The position numbers and the translations under genes were made by a program. Under the pieces are notes generated by a model. That model did not search any database and was not told the DNA's origin. It saw nothing but the letters and a program-made list of their open reading frames with translations. Shown one piece after another: positions 1,794-7,543 of a DNA stretch of 20,098 bases (within the stretch, counting starts at the first letter, position 1; each line of letters opens with the position of its first letter). The stretch covers positions 1 through 20,098 of IMG/VR virus record IMGVR_UViG_3300024265_000236. One strand, given 5' to 3'. The stretch is from a virus.

Positions 1794-2090
1794 ATGCCCA
1801 GACTCACCGGAACGGAAGCAATCACGTACGCAGCACTCACCGCCACGCAGCTAGACAGCTACACCCCTCCGGTCGCACAGCCCCGCGACGACCTGACGAC
1901 CGCACAGGCCGAGAAGGTCGTACACGACGACGGCGGCTTCGTCTGGACCGACACGAGTAAGTGGGCTGATGGGGGACTCGCGGCCCTCGGCGTCAGCAAG
2001 GCTCTGGAGCAGCTGGCAGACGCTGGCCACCCCCAGGATTCAAACACTGTGGAACGTGTACTGGCCGCAGCTCGCGAGCGGGCTAAGTGA
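1794..2090 (+). CDS. Hypothetical protein (98 aa)
   Basis: A 98-residue soluble protein of no family I recognise. It starts MPRLTGTEAITYAALTATQL, has a proline-containing linker, a short HDDGGFVWTDTSKW segment and a C-terminal helix ending ERVLAAARERAK. The start is well supported: AAGGAG (1778-1783) lies 10 bases before the ATG. That ribosome binding site sits inside the right arm of a perfect 10-bp inverted repeat, so translation may be controlled. Its TGA overlaps the GTG of the ribbon-helix-helix gene (GTGA). No signal peptide, membrane segment or catalytic motif is visible. Confidence 0.7.
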   Translation: MPRLTGTEAITYAALTATQLDSYTPPVAQPRDDLTTAQAEKVVHDDGGFVWTDTSKWADGGLAALGVSKALEQLADAGHPQDSNTVERVLAAARERAK

Positions 2091-2266
2091 CCCCCAGCGG
2101 CGGAACGCGACCCGGGGCGGGACGGCCAGCGACCGGCACAGACCCTAACTTCACGGTCCGACTCCCGCCGGAGCTGCTCGCTAACGTGCGTGCAGCGGCC
2201 GAGGTCGAGGGGCTAACCGTAAGCGAGTGGCTTCGCGGAGTGATTGAGAGGGAGATATCAAACTGA
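2087..2266 (+). CDS. Small ribbon-helix-helix (Arc/CopG-type) DNA-binding protein
   Basis: A 59-residue protein with a GTG start that overlaps the upstream stop codon (GTGA). The first ~18 residues are a flexible Gly/Arg/Pro stretch (TPSGGTRPGAGRPATG), a lead often seen before small RHH domains. Residues ~20-57 fit one ribbon-helix-helix unit: strand NFTVRLPPEL, helix 1 LANVRAAAEVEG, turn LTVSEW, helix 2 LRGVIEREI. Such proteins bind operator DNA as dimers, with the strand residues entering the major groove. In this position it is likely an early phage regulator or an autoregulator of the small-gene cluster; the target is unknown. There is no neighbouring toxin-like gene, so an antitoxin role is less likely. 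Confidence 0.75.
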   Translation: MTPSGGTRPGAGRPATGTDPNFTVRLPPELLANVRAAAEVEGLTVSEWLRGVIEREISN

Positions 2267-2442
2267 TGGACACCGCGGAATTCGAGAAGATGCACTACAA
2301 CACATGTGAGGAAAGTGACGCAGCGGCACGAGCGTGCCAACCTACCGCTGTAGCGATCCTACACGCAGTAGGCGATCTAAGCCGCGTCCTGTTCGACATT
2401 GTGTTGGAGCTGCGGGAGCTGAACAAGCGAGAGGCGAACTGA
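2266..2442 (+). CDS. Hypothetical small protein (58 aa)
   Basis: A 58-residue frame between the RHH gene and the next small gene; it is called from context. The ATG overlaps the upstream TGA by one base (TGATG), and its own TGA overlaps the following ATG in the same way. The sequence begins MDTAEFEKMHYNTCEESDAA and ends with an amphipathic helix (VGDLSRVLFDIVLELRELNK). It has two cysteines and no signal or membrane segment. It resembles the small helical proteins packed in phage early regions; no function can be assigned. Support comes from perfect stop/start coupling on both sides and the absence of any other frame filling this interval. Confidence 0.6.
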   Translation: MDTAEFEKMHYNTCEESDAAARACQPTAVAILHAVGDLSRVLFDIVLELRELNKREAN

Positions 2443-2753
2443 TGGGCACGATCATTCACCACGCGATAATTGCCACAGCATGCACAGACGATTTCAGCAA
2501 GCTAGTGGCCCTCGTTGGTGCGAGGGGCGACTGCTGGGTCAGCGACATGGGAATCAACGCGTATCGTACGTTTTTCCTAGCTCCGGACGGCAGCAAAGAG
2601 AGCTGGGCCGAATCCGACACCGGCGATGACCTACGCGATGATGTGGTGAAGTGGCTTAGCCGTGATGATTTTTACGGTGAATGGTGCGAGATCGCGATGG
2701 GTGAGCTACCTGGCCATGACAGTGATGCGATAGTCACGCGACGCCCCGGGTGA
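2442..2753 (+). CDS. Hypothetical protein (103 aa)
   Basis: A 103-residue protein. I place the start at the ATG of 2442 because it is coupled to the preceding TGA; the frame stays open upstream to 2334, but that part overlaps the previous gene. The sequence runs MGTIIHHAIIATACTDDFSK, later WVSDMGINAYRTFFLAPDGS and a very acidic stretch around SWAESDTGDDLRDDV. A small alpha/beta fold is plausible. The tone (two short strands, acidic centre, solvent-exposed aromatic residues) resembles uncharacterised phage early proteins. The stop overlaps the GTG start of the DNA polymerase (GTGA), so the two are translationally coupled. No family recognised. Confidence 0.68.
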   Translation: MGTIIHHAIIATACTDDFSKLVALVGARGDCWVSDMGINAYRTFFLAPDGSKESWAESDTGDDLRDDVVKWLSRDDFYGEWCEIAMGELPGHDSDAIVTRRPG

Positions 2754-4939
2754 CTGACCACCTCTACGGCACCCAGCTCCCCGCCGGCCACTCCGTCTCC
2801 ACCGTGCTCGCCTCGGGTGATTTCGAAACGTACAGCGAGGCCGGCTTCATCTGGACAGGCGAGCGCTGGGCCGCGGCCAAGAAAGGCTCCCCCGGCATCG
2901 CTGCTGTCGGCGCGTGGTCGTACAGCGCCCACCCGTCCACCGAGGTGCTCGTATTCCGCTACGACCTGAAGGATGGCGCGGGGCTCCGCTACTGGCGCCC
3001 GGGGTGCCCGCCGCCCGCCGAGCTCTTCCAGCATCTCGCCGCCGGCAAGCTCTTCGAAGCAACGAACAGCTTCTTCGAGTACGTGATCTGGTCCAACGTA
3101 TGCGTCCGCCGCTACGGCTGGCCGGCACTCCCGCTCGATCAGGTGCGCGACGTCGCAGCGAAGGCCGGCGCCTGGACGCTCCCCCGGAAGCTCGAGCATG
3201 CGGCGAACGTCCTCGAGACGTCCGAACGGAAGGACACCGAGGGGCATCGCGTGATGCTGCGGCTCTCAAAGCCGCGGAACCCCACCAAGACAGACGACAG
3301 CCTCAGACACACCCGTGAGGGCGTGCCCGGGGACTTCGCGCGACTCGACGCCTACTGCGCCGACGACGTGCGCGCTGAGGATGCGGTGAGCGCCCGCTGC
3401 CCAGACCTCTCACCGTACGAGACCCGCGTGTTTCTCGCCGATCAGGTGATCAACGTGCGCGGAGTCCGCTGCGACCGGGAGGCCGTGGACGCCTCGCTCG
3501 CAATCATCGAGCAAGCCGCAGCCCGCTACAACGTCGAGCTACAGCACGTTACGGGCGGCACGGTCGGCACCGCTGACGAGCTGGACAAGATGAAGGCGTG
3601 GCTGCTCACCCAGGGGGTGAACGCACCGGAGATCACAAAGGACACACTGCCCGTACTGCTCGCCAGCCCCCTACCCGACGCCGCCCGCCGTGTCCTGCAG
3701 ATCCGGGAGCTAATGGGCTCACTGAGCGTCAAGAAAACGCGCTCCATGAGCCTTATGATGGATCCACGTGACGACCGAATCAGAGGGCTCTACACGTACG
3801 CAGGAGCGCCTCGCACGTGGCGCTGGTCGGGCGGCGGTGTCCAGCCGCAGAACCTCCCGAAGGACGGCCCTGACGTCGTACGGTGCGTCAGGTGCAGCAC
3901 CGTCCACTGGTCCGGGCTCGGCTATTGCCCGAGCTGCTTCGGGACGCACAGCAAGCCCGCAAAGTGGGGCATCGAAGCGGCCGAGGCGTGCATCCCCGCG
4001 TTGCTCACCCGCTCGCTCGATATCGTCGAGTCCCTGTGGGGCGATGCGCTGCTAGCAATCGCGGGGTGCTTGAGGTCGTTCTTCATCGCTGGCCCGGGCT
4101 GCGTGCTGCGCTCGTCGGATCTCAGTTCAATTGAGGCTGTGGTGATCGCGGAGCTGGCTGGCGAGACCTGGCGACAGGAAGTGTTCCGGACACACGGGAA
4201 GATCTACGAGATGACCGCGAGCAAGCTCACGCACACCCCGTTCGAGGAGTTTGCGCGGTACAAGGCCGAGACAGGTCTTGACCACCCGCAGCGGGCGCTC
4301 GGTAAGGTGGCGGAGCTCGCCTCAAGCTTCGGGGGGTGGGGTAAGGCGTGGGCTAAATTCGGCGCCGCTGAGTTCATGACCGAGCACGAGATGGAGGTCA
4401 ACAGCAGTAAGTGGCGCAAGCAATCACCTATGATCGTGGCGCTCTGGAAAGGCCTCGAGACCGCGGCCATAGCTGCAATCGAGAACCCCGGACAGTGCTA
4501 CCGGTACCGCCAGCTCGCCTACCAGATGCACGCAAACGTGCTCTACTGCCAGCTCCCAAGCGGCCGGGCGATCCCTTACCACGCCCCCCACGTGTTCGAA
4601 GAGATCCGCTACGACAAACCAACGAAGAGCATCGCCTACATGGGCGTTGACTCACAGTCCAAGCAGTGGCGACAGCAATTTACGTACGGCGCGAAGCTCG
4701 CCGAAAACTGCACGCAAGCTACGGCCCGCGATATCTTCGCGGCCGGGATCGTGCGGCTCGAGGATGCGGGCTACCCCGTTGTCCTACACACTCACGATGA
4801 ACCAACGTGCGAGCTGCCCGAGGGCGTGGGCTCCGTTGAAGAGATCGAGCGGCTCATGACTGTGCCGCTCCCGTGGTGTCCGGACTGGCCGGTACGCGCT
4901 AGCGGGGGCTGGTCTGGACAGAGATATCGGAAGGGGTAG
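2750..4939 (+). CDS. Family A DNA polymerase with 3'-5' exonuclease and inserted zinc ribbon
   Basis: A 729-residue replicative polymerase, close in length to T7 DNA polymerase. The exonuclease domain opens with DFETYSE (D24, E26) and closes near YCADDVRAEDA. The polymerase motifs are: the pre-palm signature PRTWRWSGGGVQPQNLPK; motif A SSDLSSIEAVVIAELAG with the metal-binding D457 (DLSSIE replaces the common DYSQIE); motif B RALGK...SFGGWG with R515 and K519; motif C HTHDEP with H682-D683-E684. Between the QNLP element and motif A sits an extra segment with C379-x2-C382 and C393-x2-C396, a zinc ribbon not usual in this family. The GTG start is coupled to the upstream stop. With the DUF2800 and DUF2815 genes it forms a phage replication module acting on the viral genome in the cytoplasm. 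Confidence 0.92.
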   Translation: MTDHLYGTQLPAGHSVSTVLASGDFETYSEAGFIWTGERWAAAKKGSPGIAAVGAWSYSAHPSTEVLVFRYDLKDGAGLRYWRPGCPPPAELFQHLAAGKLFEATNSFFEYVIWSNVCVRRYGWPALPLDQVRDVAAKAGAWTLPRKLEHAANVLETSERKDTEGHRVMLRLSKPRNPTKTDDSLRHTREGVPGDFARLDAYCADDVRAEDAVSARCPDLSPYETRVFLADQVINVRGVRCDREAVDASLAIIEQAAARYNVELQHVTGGTVGTADELDKMKAWLLTQGVNAPEITKDTLPVLLASPLPDAARRVLQIRELMGSLSVKKTRSMSLMMDPRDDRIRGLYTYAGAPRTWRWSGGGVQPQNLPKDGPDVVRCVRCSTVHWSGLGYCPSCFGTHSKPAKWGIEAAEACIPALLTRSLDIVESLWGDALLAIAGCLRSFFIAGPGCVLRSSDLSSIEAVVIAELAGETWRQEVFRTHGKIYEMTASKLTHTPFEEFARYKAETGLDHPQRALGKVAELASSFGGWGKAWAKFGAAEFMTEHEMEVNSSKWRKQSPMIVALWKGLETAAIAAIENPGQCYRYRQLAYQMHANVLYCQLPSGRAIPYHAPHVFEEIRYDKPTKSIAYMGVDSQSKQWRQQFTYGAKLAENCTQATARDIFAAGIVRLEDAGYPVVLHTHDEPTCELPEGVGSVEEIERLMTVPLPWCPDWPVRASGGWSGQRYRKG

Positions 4940-4943
4940 GGCA

Positions 4944-5291
4944 GTGCGCTACGACCCCAGTCTCAAGCCGGGTAAATCCTGGGCTCACTTGCGTCTTACG
5001 AGCACAGACACATACGATAAACCGTGGCTAACAGACGTCACGGTCGGCGAATGCCAGCACGCGGAGAGTCTTGCTGAAGCTGGGGCTGAACGTGCGGTAG
5101 CACTTCCTGGGGTAGCGCGCATCTTCACAGAGCGGCACGGAACAGACGATCTGCCGCCTCTGATGGGACACCAGTACGCTAGTCGCACCTCGCGTAAGCA
5201 GACCGAGTGGCGCTGTCAGAAATGCGGCGTATTGTGGGAGACCAACCGGACCGATCCGCAGTGGTGCTGCGCACTAGGGGGCGTGACGTGA
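4944..5291 (+). CDS. Hypothetical protein with C-terminal Cys-rich (zinc-ribbon-like) segment
   Basis: A 115-residue protein with a GTG start four bases after the polymerase stop; AAGGGG/AGGG lies just upstream as ribosome binding site. The N-terminal two thirds (DPSLKPGKSWAHLRLTSTDT...) are unrecognised. The C-terminus holds WRCQKCGVLWETN...PQWCC, a CxxC followed by CC after ~15 residues, which could bind one zinc ion. The protein may be a small nucleic-acid-binding accessory factor of the polymerase or of the following cassette; this rests only on position and the cysteines. Its stop overlaps the GTG of the IbrA-like gene (GTGA), so it may be the first gene of that cassette. Confidence 0.68.
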   Translation: MRYDPSLKPGKSWAHLRLTSTDTYDKPWLTDVTVGECQHAESLAEAGAERAVALPGVARIFTERHGTDDLPPLMGHQYASRTSRKQTEWRCQKCGVLWETNRTDPQWCCALGGVT

Positions 5292-6598
5292 AGCGAGCGG
5301 CAAGAGTGTACGACGGCACTAAGAACGTCTACGACGCTGCGCTCGAGCGCATCGCGTTCACGTTCGAGCATTTCGATCGGATCTACCTGTCCTTCTCGGG
5401 CGGGAAAGACAGCGGTGTGATGCTCAACATGTACATCGACTACATGCGAAAGCACGGGATCAAGCAGAAGCTGGGCGTAATGATCCTCGATAATGAGGCG
5501 AATTACGAGTATTCCATCGATTTCATGCACTCAATACTCAGGGCGAACCTCGACCTCCTGGACGTGTATTGGTGCTGCCTCCCGATCACCCTTCCGTGCA
5601 CGGTCAGCTCCTACGCCGTTGAGTGGCAGTGCTGGGGTGAACGCGACCGTGACCGCTGGATTCGGCCGATGCCCAAAGATAGCTACATCGTCAACGTCGA
5701 TAACTGTCCATTCGATTTCTTCCGCGAGGACATGAACTACGACGAGTTCTGGGATTCATTCGGCGATTGGTACGGCCAAGGGAAACGGACCGCGTGTTTG
5801 ATCGGCATACGAACCGTTGAGAGCCTGAACCGCTACCGCGCGATAATGAACACGCGGAAGGAAACGCTACACGGGGAGATGTGGACAAAACGAAACACCC
5901 CTACAGTCTACAACTGCTACCCCCTGTACGACTGGCGAACCGAGGATATCTGGGTTGCTAACGCCCGGTTCGAGTGGGAGTACAACCGACTCTACGACAT
6001 CTTCTATAAGGCTGGTGTGCCTGTCCATTCGATGCGGGTCGCGTCGCCGTTCATGAGCGAGTCGAAATCCAGCCTCGGGCTATACCGAGTCATCGACCCG
6101 CACGTCTGGGCCAAATTATGCGCCCGGGTTCAGGGCGCTAACTTCATAGCCACTTACGGGAGGCAGCTCAACTACAACTCGTTCAAGCTACCACCTGGCC
6201 ACACTTGGAAATCATTCACCAAGTTTCTTCTCGATACGCTTCCGGAGGAAGTGGCTGAGAATTTTAGACAACGGTTCATCCAATCGTTCAAGGTGTGGGG
6301 CAGGGTGGGCCGGGGATTGCCCGAGAGTGTGATACAAGAGCTGCGGGATCACGGCATCCCGTTCCGTCTGAACGGTAAGACGCACCACGGAAACAAGACG
6401 CTGGACCGGGTCCGAATCCAACGGTTCCCGGATCACCTCGACATGCTGAGCTGCCACAACGGGACGGTCGCCTCGTGGAAACGTTTCGCGCTAACGATCC
6501 TGAAGAACGACCACACATGTAAGTATATGGGGCTAGCCCCAACCAAGGGGCAAGCACTCCGTCAACGCCAGATCATGGAGAAATACAAGACACTATGA
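5288..6598 (+). CDS. IbrA-like PAPS-reductase/PP-loop protein (DUF3440)
   Basis: A 436-residue protein from the GTG at 5288, which is coupled to the upstream stop; the frame is open back to 5207, but that part overlaps the previous gene. The PP-loop motif SGGKDS lies at residues 37-42, defining the PAPS-reductase/adenine-nucleotide alpha-hydrolase fold that activates a substrate by adenylation. The middle contains YNCYPLYDWRTEDIW and later YNRLYDIFYKAGVP, hallmarks of the DUF3440 branch that includes E. coli IbrA, a protein linked to regulation of prophage-borne immunoglobulin-binding proteins but of unknown chemistry. The C-terminus (WKRFALTILKNDHTC, ~397-411) is a separate helical module that recurs in the gene at 7540. 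ATGA overlap with the EctC-like gene and an IbrB-like gene two positions on indicate one functional unit. True PAPS reduction is unlikely; transfer of sulfur, or of a nucleotide-activated group, is possible. Confidence 0.87.
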   Translation: MKRAARVYDGTKNVYDAALERIAFTFEHFDRIYLSFSGGKDSGVMLNMYIDYMRKHGIKQKLGVMILDNEANYEYSIDFMHSILRANLDLLDVYWCCLPITLPCTVSSYAVEWQCWGERDRDRWIRPMPKDSYIVNVDNCPFDFFREDMNYDEFWDSFGDWYGQGKRTACLIGIRTVESLNRYRAIMNTRKETLHGEMWTKRNTPTVYNCYPLYDWRTEDIWVANARFEWEYNRLYDIFYKAGVPVHSMRVASPFMSESKSSLGLYRVIDPHVWAKLCARVQGANFIATYGRQLNYNSFKLPPGHTWKSFTKFLLDTLPEEVAENFRQRFIQSFKVWGRVGRGLPESVIQELRDHGIPFRLNGKTHHGNKTLDRVRIQRFPDHLDMLSCHNGTVASWKRFALTILKNDHTCKYMGLAPTKGQALRQRQIMEKYKTL

Positions 6599-6984
6599 TA
6601 GTCATCGACATCGAAAAGCACATTGCGGGGACTTGCCAGGAGGTCCAGTGCCCAAAGGACGGGTTTACGAGCTTTCGGGCCCTGCTAGCTGCGGACGGCA
6701 TGGGATTCTCGATGAGCAAAACCTTAATCCCGCGTGGCGAGACGCAACACTGGCACTACAAGAATCATCTCGAAGCGTGCTACTGCGTGTCTGGCCTAGG
6801 GTTGCTCACCGTTGATGAAACGGGCGACAATTTCGTGATCAGACCCGACGTCGTTTACGCCGTTGACAAACACGACTCGCATCATTTCATCGCTTTCGAG
6901 GACGTGGTCTTGATCTGCGTATTCAACCCACCCCTCAGAGGCCGCGAGCTTCATCGTGTGGATGGTTCCTACCGTGCCGGATGA
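6595..6984 (+). CDS. Ectoine-synthase-like cupin (EctC family), phage-encoded
   Basis: A 129-residue protein of almost exactly EctC length and layout. EctC (EC 4.2.1.108) cyclises N-gamma-acetyl-diaminobutyrate to ectoine on an iron-containing cupin. Family blocks are clear: MIVIDIEKHIAGT, FRALLAADGMGFSMSKTLI, HYKNHLEACYCVSGLG, VYAVDKHDSHHFIA and LICVFNPPLRGRE. The residues equivalent to the iron ligands described for Paenibacillus lautus EctC (Glu57, Tyr85, His93) are present with constant offset as E60, Y88 and H96; R28, T43, Y55, H58, C108 and F110 also match substrate-site positions, while the expected Trp is F24. No ectA or ectB is in the window. The gene sits between IbrA-like and IbrB-like genes with overlaps on both sides, so it may act on a different substrate in that system, or be an auxiliary metabolic gene. 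Confidence 0.88.
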   Translation: MIVIDIEKHIAGTCQEVQCPKDGFTSFRALLAADGMGFSMSKTLIPRGETQHWHYKNHLEACYCVSGLGLLTVDETGDNFVIRPDVVYAVDKHDSHHFIAFEDVVLICVFNPPLRGRELHRVDGSYRAG

Positions 6985-7543
6985 CCCCTTCGCACCGGTC
7001 TTCTGCTCTCCGGTATACAGGGTTCTCGCGGTCCCTATCGAGCAAGTCGTGGCGAACGCCTACAACCCGAACGCTGTCGCCCCGCCCGAGATGGCGCTGC
7101 TAGAAACGTCTATCTGGGAGGATGGCTTCACGCAACCGATCGTCACTTACTACGACGCTGAGAATGCGCAATACGTTGTCGTGGACGGGTTCCATCGATA
7201 CCTGACGATCAAAAACAGCGAACGGATTCGTACACGTGAGCGCGGCCTGCTGCCCGTCGTCGTGATCGATAAAGACATCTCGGACCGGATGGCCTCTACG
7301 ATCCGGCACAACCGAGCGCGGGGCGCGCACAACGTGGAGCTGATGAGCGCCATCGTTGCCGAGCTCGTGGAGATGGGGAAAGGTGATCGGTGGATCTGCA
7401 AGCACATCGGGATGAGCGCCGATGAACTGCTGAGACTGAAGCAAATCACCGGGGTCGCCGCGCTGTTCGCGAACCAAGAGTTCTCCAAGAGCTGGCAGGC
7501 GGACGTGTCATCCGAGGACATGCACTTCGAAGATGGATCGTGA
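6956..7543 (+). CDS. IbrB-like ParB/sulfiredoxin-fold protein
   Basis: About 195 residues if the GTG at 6956 is used; ATG 6962 or GTG 6974 are alternatives, all overlapping the end of the EctC-like gene. The domain spans ~18-110: VPIEQVVANAYNPNAVAPPE, LLETSIWEDGFTQPIVTYY, and the signature VVDGFHRYLTI in place of the ParB GxxR box. This is the IbrB branch of the ParB/Srx superfamily, which usually travels with IbrA. Residues ~115-165 (IRHNRARGAHNVELMSAIVA, then ICKHIGMSADELLRLKQI) look like the helical HTH-type domain that follows in ParB proteins. Role in IbrA/IbrB systems is unresolved: DNA binding, nucleotide binding or phosphotransfer have all been considered for this fold. The stop overlaps the GTG of the next gene. 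Confidence 0.82.
   Translation: MWMVPTVPDDPFAPVFCSPVYRVLAVPIEQVVANAYNPNAVAPPEMALLETSIWEDGFTQPIVTYYDAENAQYVVVDGFHRYLTIKNSERIRTRERGLLPVVVIDKDISDRMASTIRHNRARGAHNVELMSAIVAELVEMGKGDRWICKHIGMSADELLRLKQITGVAALFANQEFSKSWQADVSSEDMHFEDGS

Follow-up and report, generated by a model that had tools for sequence, protein, structure and literature searches.

Identity of the viral EctC

Does a relative of ectoine synthase (EctC) encoded in viral DNA make ectoine, or has it been put to another use? The question is raised by an ORF in IMG/VR virus record IMGVR_UViG_3300024265_000236, a fragment of 20,098 bases that was analysed over its whole length and is referred to here as the window. Two 2026 virome papers interpret viral genes for ectoine synthase or ectoine as aiding the hosts osmotically (PMC13079714, PMC13288924), and those genes may or may not belong to the clade described here. 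We have high confidence that the EctC-like cupin of the window is dedicated to the ibrA/ibrB-type phage cassettes of a single clade, and that it is not an ectoine gene.

The ORF scored 137.1 bits (E 5.2e-40, cut-off 27) against the Pfam model Ectoine_synth (PF06339) and 136.9 bits (cut-off 128) against the NCBIfam ectoine synthase model. In a sequence search of the PDB, the top matches were the EctCs of P. lautus and S. alaskensis (E 2e-25). An AlphaFold model (mean pLDDT 87.5, pTM 0.81) gave structures of the same two enzymes as its eight top Foldseek matches, with TM scores of about 0.8 and 40–42 % identity. Judged on these matches, the ORF is a genuine EctC-family cupin. The preliminary description had named placement among generic cupins, or misplaced ligands in a predicted structure, as evidence that would count against it. 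A generic cupin is ruled out, as the EctC model is far above its cut-off and the best Foldseek matches are EctC, whose fold the model shares.

The cassette in the window

The EctC gene is the second in an overlapping set of four, in the order ibrA-like, EctC, ibrB-like, P4 (Table 1). The stop of the ibrA-like gene and the start of EctC overlap in ATGA (6595–6598), and the ibrB-like gene overlaps EctC by 29 nt in a different frame. The likely start of the ibrA-like gene is GTG 5288, since the alignment to relatives begins only at about residue 29 and this codon shares bases with the stop of the ORF before it. P4b is a copy of the C-terminal domain of DUF3440.

Table 1. Genes of the cassette in the window
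Feature	Position	Strand	Domains and motifs	Evidence
ibrA-like gene	5207..6598	+	PAPS-reductase-fold PP-loop domain and DUF3440; SGGKDS, residues 64–69	Pfam, PHROG 2302
EctC-family cupin, 129 aa	6595..6984	+		Pfam, NCBIfam, PDB sequence matches, AlphaFold/Foldseek
ibrB-like gene	6956..7543	+	ParB-fold protein; NTP-binding P-motif GFHR	Pfam, PHROG 2159
P4	7540..8220	+	P4a (about residues 1–130) and P4b (about residues 140–212)	GTGA overlap with ParB gene

DUF3440 and ParB together make up the ibrA/ibrB pair, and the names IbrA and IbrB occur in several phage records. As the window has adjacent genes for a DUF3440/PAPS-reductase-fold protein and a ParB-like protein, its cassette was classed as IbrA/IbrB-type. 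The description of this EctC as an orphan is thus correct for ectA and ectB only, since the gene lies inside a conserved cassette. The remaining genes of the window are phage-type, namely those for a family A polymerase, a single-stranded DNA-binding protein, and baseplate and tail proteins. The G+C content of the cassette region (5001–7500) is approximately 0.56–0.57, compared with 0.60–0.67 in the preceding genes, which is consistent with recent acquisition.

Active-site residues

Residue roles and reference numbering follow PlEctC (PMC6344544), and 63 ectB-linked cellular EctCs were used as the comparison set. E60, Y88 and H96 of the window protein align with the PlEctC iron ligands E57, Y84 and H92, in agreement with the preliminary description, and this placement is based on the alignment and the overall fold match. 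S26, R28, T43, Y55, H58, C108, F110 and E118 are also conserved relative to PlEctC, and all but S26 and E118 had been named as active-site matches before. The catalytic Trp (PlEctC Trp21), the replacement of which by Ala leaves 9.7 % activity (PMC6344544), is indeed replaced by F24. However, it is not the only replacement, as had been stated. S41 is found at the position of the substrate-binding (carboxylate) Asn38, which is H or N in 61 of the 63 ectB-linked EctCs, and C62 is found where 61 of the 63 have Val.

Across the viral clade, the metal triad is retained (E and Y in 147/147, H in 146/147), and T43, Y55 and R28 are invariant or nearly so. The Trp is absent from 145 of 146 viral EctCs and present in 60 of 62 that are ectB-linked. 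All 147 viral sequences carry Cys at position 62, and 133 of them have Lys or Arg at position 42. The Asn38 position is T in 89, H in 42 and N in 2 (n=147). This site was considered as a diagnostic feature but the case for it was weakened, as His and Thr vary in both the viral and the ectB-linked groups; because His is the usual residue in the ectB-linked enzymes, the site alone is not diagnostic. On the aligned sequences, C62 and loss of the Trp are better markers of the viral type. H54 was rejected as a phage novelty, since ectB-linked EctCs, too, most often have His at this position.

Ectoine genes in the neighbourhood

A tblastn search detected neither ectA nor ectB in the viral loci, those from IMG/VR included, with one exception (L004), and the ectB family model had no match in eight phage records, which include the complete genomes of Gaia and XCL1123. 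The same model matched 14 of 14 control genomes. The earlier statement that there is no ectA or ectB nearby holds in the other viral loci tested and, for ectB, in the phage records. The exception, 'gut phage' MT835761, was ruled out as a source of phage EctC, as there is ectA/ectB similarity nearby and its EctC groups with cellular ones. This entry (MT835761.1) is an unverified faecal scaffold labelled bacteriophage, and is probably bacterial DNA.

Linkage of EctC to ibrA-like and ParB genes

A search of viral contigs identified 119 relatives of the EctC, of which 80 were fetched. EctC was scored as present when a tblastn match lay inside the fetched 4–6 kb flanks. Nearly all of the 80 loci have ibrA-like, EctC, ParB and P4 genes. 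Loci were also fetched using partner genes alone, which avoids selection on EctC. EctC was present in 74 of 75 new loci fetched with the ibrA of the window and in 73 of 75 fetched with its ParB, and in none of 80 fetched with a distant ibrA (Streptococcus phage CHPC1148). When all loci were pooled, including those fetched with EctC, there were 157 distinct ibrA-like genes with at least 58 % identity to that of the window, and 156 of these have EctC within the fetched flanks.

Eleven gene orders were seen among the pooled loci, with fused and separate forms counted apart, and EctC and ParB are fused in one reading frame in 77 loci, about half. That the linkage persists although the genes have been rearranged, and repeatedly fused and split, points to a joint function. 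The fused form is found in Mycobacterium phage Gaia (gp103–gp104), a soil phage with M. smegmatis as host, and the same cassette with EctC and ParB split is found in Pseudoalteromonas phage XCL1123. In the phage collection, only five records have EctC; the ibrA and ibrB families are each in >200, with a nearly identical host spread.

Phylogeny, co-divergence and selection

The EctC tree included 81 EctCs and, as there are few columns, its inner forks were not relied on. The 26 viral-type rows are on one side of a branch with 100/100 support and a length of 0.87; they comprise the window, phage and viral-contig sequences, and a copy from a Planctomycetota genome (L085) that is apparently carried by a prophage. 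On the other side of the branch are 41 ectB-linked and 13 unlinked cellular EctCs, and L004. The phylogeny, a check proposed in the preliminary description, hence places the EctC of the window outside the ectB-linked ectoine synthases. In the ibrA tree, the EctC-bearing rows form a single branch (100/100, length 0.87) with one nested exception, L210, which has a peroxiredoxin gene in the slot and represents a secondary replacement.

Pairwise distances of EctC correlate with those of ibrA (r 0.45; 0 of 2000 permutations as high), and the correlation with ParB is lower (r 0.16). In addition, L413 and L427 have a ParB 75 % identical to that of the window, a distant ibrA and no EctC. Together, these observations indicate that EctC tracks the ibrA-like enzyme, despite the frequent fusion to ParB, and that the two enzymes diverged together, as far as sequence comparison can show. 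For close viral pairs, dN/dS was approximately 0.04 for EctC and 0.04 for ibrA, which indicates that EctC is under purifying selection.

We also considered whether the basal 'group 1' EctC-like proteins of M. abscessus (PMC5924519) could belong to this cassette as prophage genes. Among 298 genomes of the order that includes M. abscessus, 104 have EctC, and the actinobacterial loci examined were all ectB-linked (31/31). Genes 20 and 23 of M. abscessus prophages are described as cysteine-dioxygenase-like (a cupin-type fold) and PAPS-reductase-like, respectively (PMC8092301), and are possibly another cupin/ibrA pairing.

The slot between ibrA and ibrB in cassettes lacking EctC

In cassettes that lack EctC, the position between ibrA and ibrB is occupied by other genes. 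A GNAT acetyltransferase was identified by Pfam in L413/L427, L325 and L335, and by similarity in L319 and L324, neither of which reaches any Pfam GNAT model. A methyltransferase-like gene is found in L342, L344, L346, L347, L349 and L352; it is PHROG 9361 in the two tested, and Pfam matches were below cut-off. The slot gene in L343 is exonuclease-like, and similar-looking ORFs are present in L337 and L357. In L210, a 1-Cys peroxiredoxin gene (3868–4617) is exactly at the position of EctC in its relatives, beside a gene for a ParB/sulfiredoxin-fold protein. A search of viral contigs did not find a second case of peroxiredoxin in the slot. That EctC, GNAT, methyltransferase and peroxiredoxin genes replace one another at a single position is as expected of a tailoring slot.

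Among the 80 distant loci, 24 have an SNF2-like helicase and 53 have P4, but never both. In L285 (2206–4002) and L286 (2226–3998), the SNF2-like helicase has a GNAT-like C-terminal domain and is directly upstream of ibrA.

Other neighbourhoods were noted. In L305, a 90-kb viral contig, ibrA/ibrB are flanked (1988–7158) by ORFs that by eye resemble RAMP and Csf1, and by a second gene for a PAPS-reductase-domain protein. This flank is suggestive of a type IV-B CRISPR-Cas locus, with Pfam naming the PAPS-reductase domain only. In Fusobacterium phage phiFN37 (L276, 7466–8495), a second ParB-like gene adjoins a gene resembling queuine tRNA-ribosyltransferase, near ibrA/ibrB, a pairing that resembles the Dpd deazaguanine one.

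Proposed function and alternatives

The explanation that we favour, at even odds, is that EctC has been recruited as an exchangeable tailoring enzyme in a cassette for nucleic-acid or nucleotide modification. The cassette would act on nucleotides or on nucleic acid, in the latter case most likely on the DNA of the phage itself, to protect it. The ParB and helicase partners make DNA the leading candidate, RNA and free nucleotides also being possible. PP-loop enzymes of the DndC, TtcA and TilS kind use ATP to activate substrates, and the IbrA-like enzyme may likewise activate with ATP, or install, a group on the nucleic acid or nucleotide. The IbrA relative of a Fusobacterium phage matches DndC (P0009, 2e-9), the match of the IbrA itself to DndC is partial, and a sequence search did not find a relative of IbrA with a solved structure. 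The ParB-fold protein would serve as the NTP-dependent switch by which the machinery is brought to DNA. Domains of the ParB fold bind CTP, ATP or GTP; cupin, ectoine and PAPS partners go unmentioned in the 2025 survey of this fold (PMC12704722).

The EctC domain, with Fe(II) or another metal held by E60, Y88 and H96, would then tailor the IbrA-dependent group, probably by closing a ring or removing water in a metal-dependent step. In the reaction of EctC, the amide carbonyl is polarised by Fe(II) and the adjacent amine closes the ring, with loss of water (PMC6344544), and the same Lewis-acid chemistry could lead to ring closure, or to hydration or dehydration of an amide-like bond. That the step is ring closure itself is possible, though we would not count on it; it presupposes that conservation of the active-site residues extends to the chemistry. 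Our fullest proposal is speculative, namely that the cupin has become a nucleic-acid-modifying enzyme that cyclises a side group which the IbrA-type PP-loop enzyme has placed on a base or nucleotide, a chemistry not described before, and that this is one of several alternatives (acetylated, methylated, oxidised or cyclised) on one ibrA/ibrB core.

The preliminary description offered two readings. One was an auxiliary metabolic gene that uses host N-acetyl-diaminobutyrate in a saline habitat. In its fuller form, the phage EctC would make ectoine from host N-gamma-acetyl-diaminobutyrate and aid osmotic tolerance during infection. This is consistent with the retained EctC fold and metal ligands, with the interpretation in the two virome papers, and with the finding that the solitary cellular EctC of P. 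syringae can make ectoine (PMC5924519). However, it is very unlikely and was rejected on neighbourhood, tree and pocket. The ectB model had no match in the eight phage records and matched all controls, the Trp21 equivalent is lost, and the viral EctCs are on a separate branch. The near-invariable linkage and frequent fusion are to ibrA/ibrB genes, of a DndC-like and ParB type, and the EctC–ParB fusion occurs in a soil phage of M. smegmatis. The second reading, an EctC derivative with a new substrate, is supported by the same separate branch, changed pocket, linkage and frequent fusion.

The main rival to a tailoring enzyme is a non-catalytic EctC domain, acting as a ligand or metal sensor that controls the ParB-fold NTP switch, with the cassette serving as a transcriptional or partition-type regulator. 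Cupins act as sensor domains in other regulators, half of the loci have the ParB fusion, and the annotation of E. coli IbrA/IbrB as co-activators in prophage gene expression would be in line with regulation. We nevertheless consider it improbable, as about 147 divergent sequences retain the core catalytic and metal residues, EctC distances correlate better with the IbrA-like enzyme than with ParB, and the slot is otherwise occupied by enzymes. It is more improbable still that the cassette forms a pathway of small-molecule or sulfur metabolism, with a true PAPS-reductase-like step followed by EctC, and is unrelated to nucleic acid. Although the fold family includes PAPS reductases and PHROGs classes the ibrA family under auxiliary metabolic genes, the IbrA of the window has an intact PP-loop, SGGKDS, and lacks ECG[LI]H, the motif of PAPS reductases. 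The constant ParB partner and the SNF2 helicase of sister cassettes also count against this pathway.

The exchange of EctC in the slot with GNAT, methyltransferase and peroxiredoxin points to a series of enzymes that share an intermediate. It also opens the function to testing in a harmless laboratory pair of phage and host, Gaia and M. smegmatis mc2 155. The findings remove the basis for reading such a viral 'ectoine synthase' as a salt-stress or osmolyte gene, and extend the ibrA/ibrB cassettes of one clade by a third enzyme, which is nearly obligate. In the open-licence literature, we found no paper on an association of EctC with phage ParB or PAPS reductase, though earlier descriptions elsewhere are possible, and no description of the biochemistry of the ibrA/ibrB pair.

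Comparison with known systems

With the Dnd phosphorothioation system, the cassette shares a PP-loop enzyme of PAPS-reductase fold (DndC) and a ParB-fold partner (the regulator DndB). However, EctC has no Dnd counterpart, none of the cassette genes encodes a recognised Dnd protein, and membership of the window IbrA in DndC was ruled out on score (14.5 against a cut-off of 290.4 bits).

Ectoine synthase (PF06339; P. lautus 5onm–5ono, S. alaskensis 5bxx/5by5) shares with the viral EctC the cupin fold, approximately 40 % identity, the Glu/Tyr/His metal triad, the equivalents of Arg25, Thr40, Tyr52 and Phe106, and the C-terminal lid region. Unlike ectoine synthase, the viral EctC has lost Trp21, has Cys62 fixed in place of Val, mostly has Thr (Ser in the window) in place of Asn/His38, and has Lys/Arg at 42. 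It is also found without ectA/ectB, is linked and often fused to ParB, and is on a separate 100/100 branch.

The 'Ectoine synthase/ParB multidomain protein' of Gaia (gp104) and XCL1123 belongs to the same cassette, with a PAPS-reductase-like gene followed by EctC and ParB, and has been known as a database label only. The IbrA/IbrB pair of phages and E. coli prophages consists of the same two core families, adjacent to one another, in >200 phage records. Compared with other ibrA/ibrB cassettes, the clade that includes the window adds EctC in the slot, and P4 replaces the SNF2-like helicase of many sisters.
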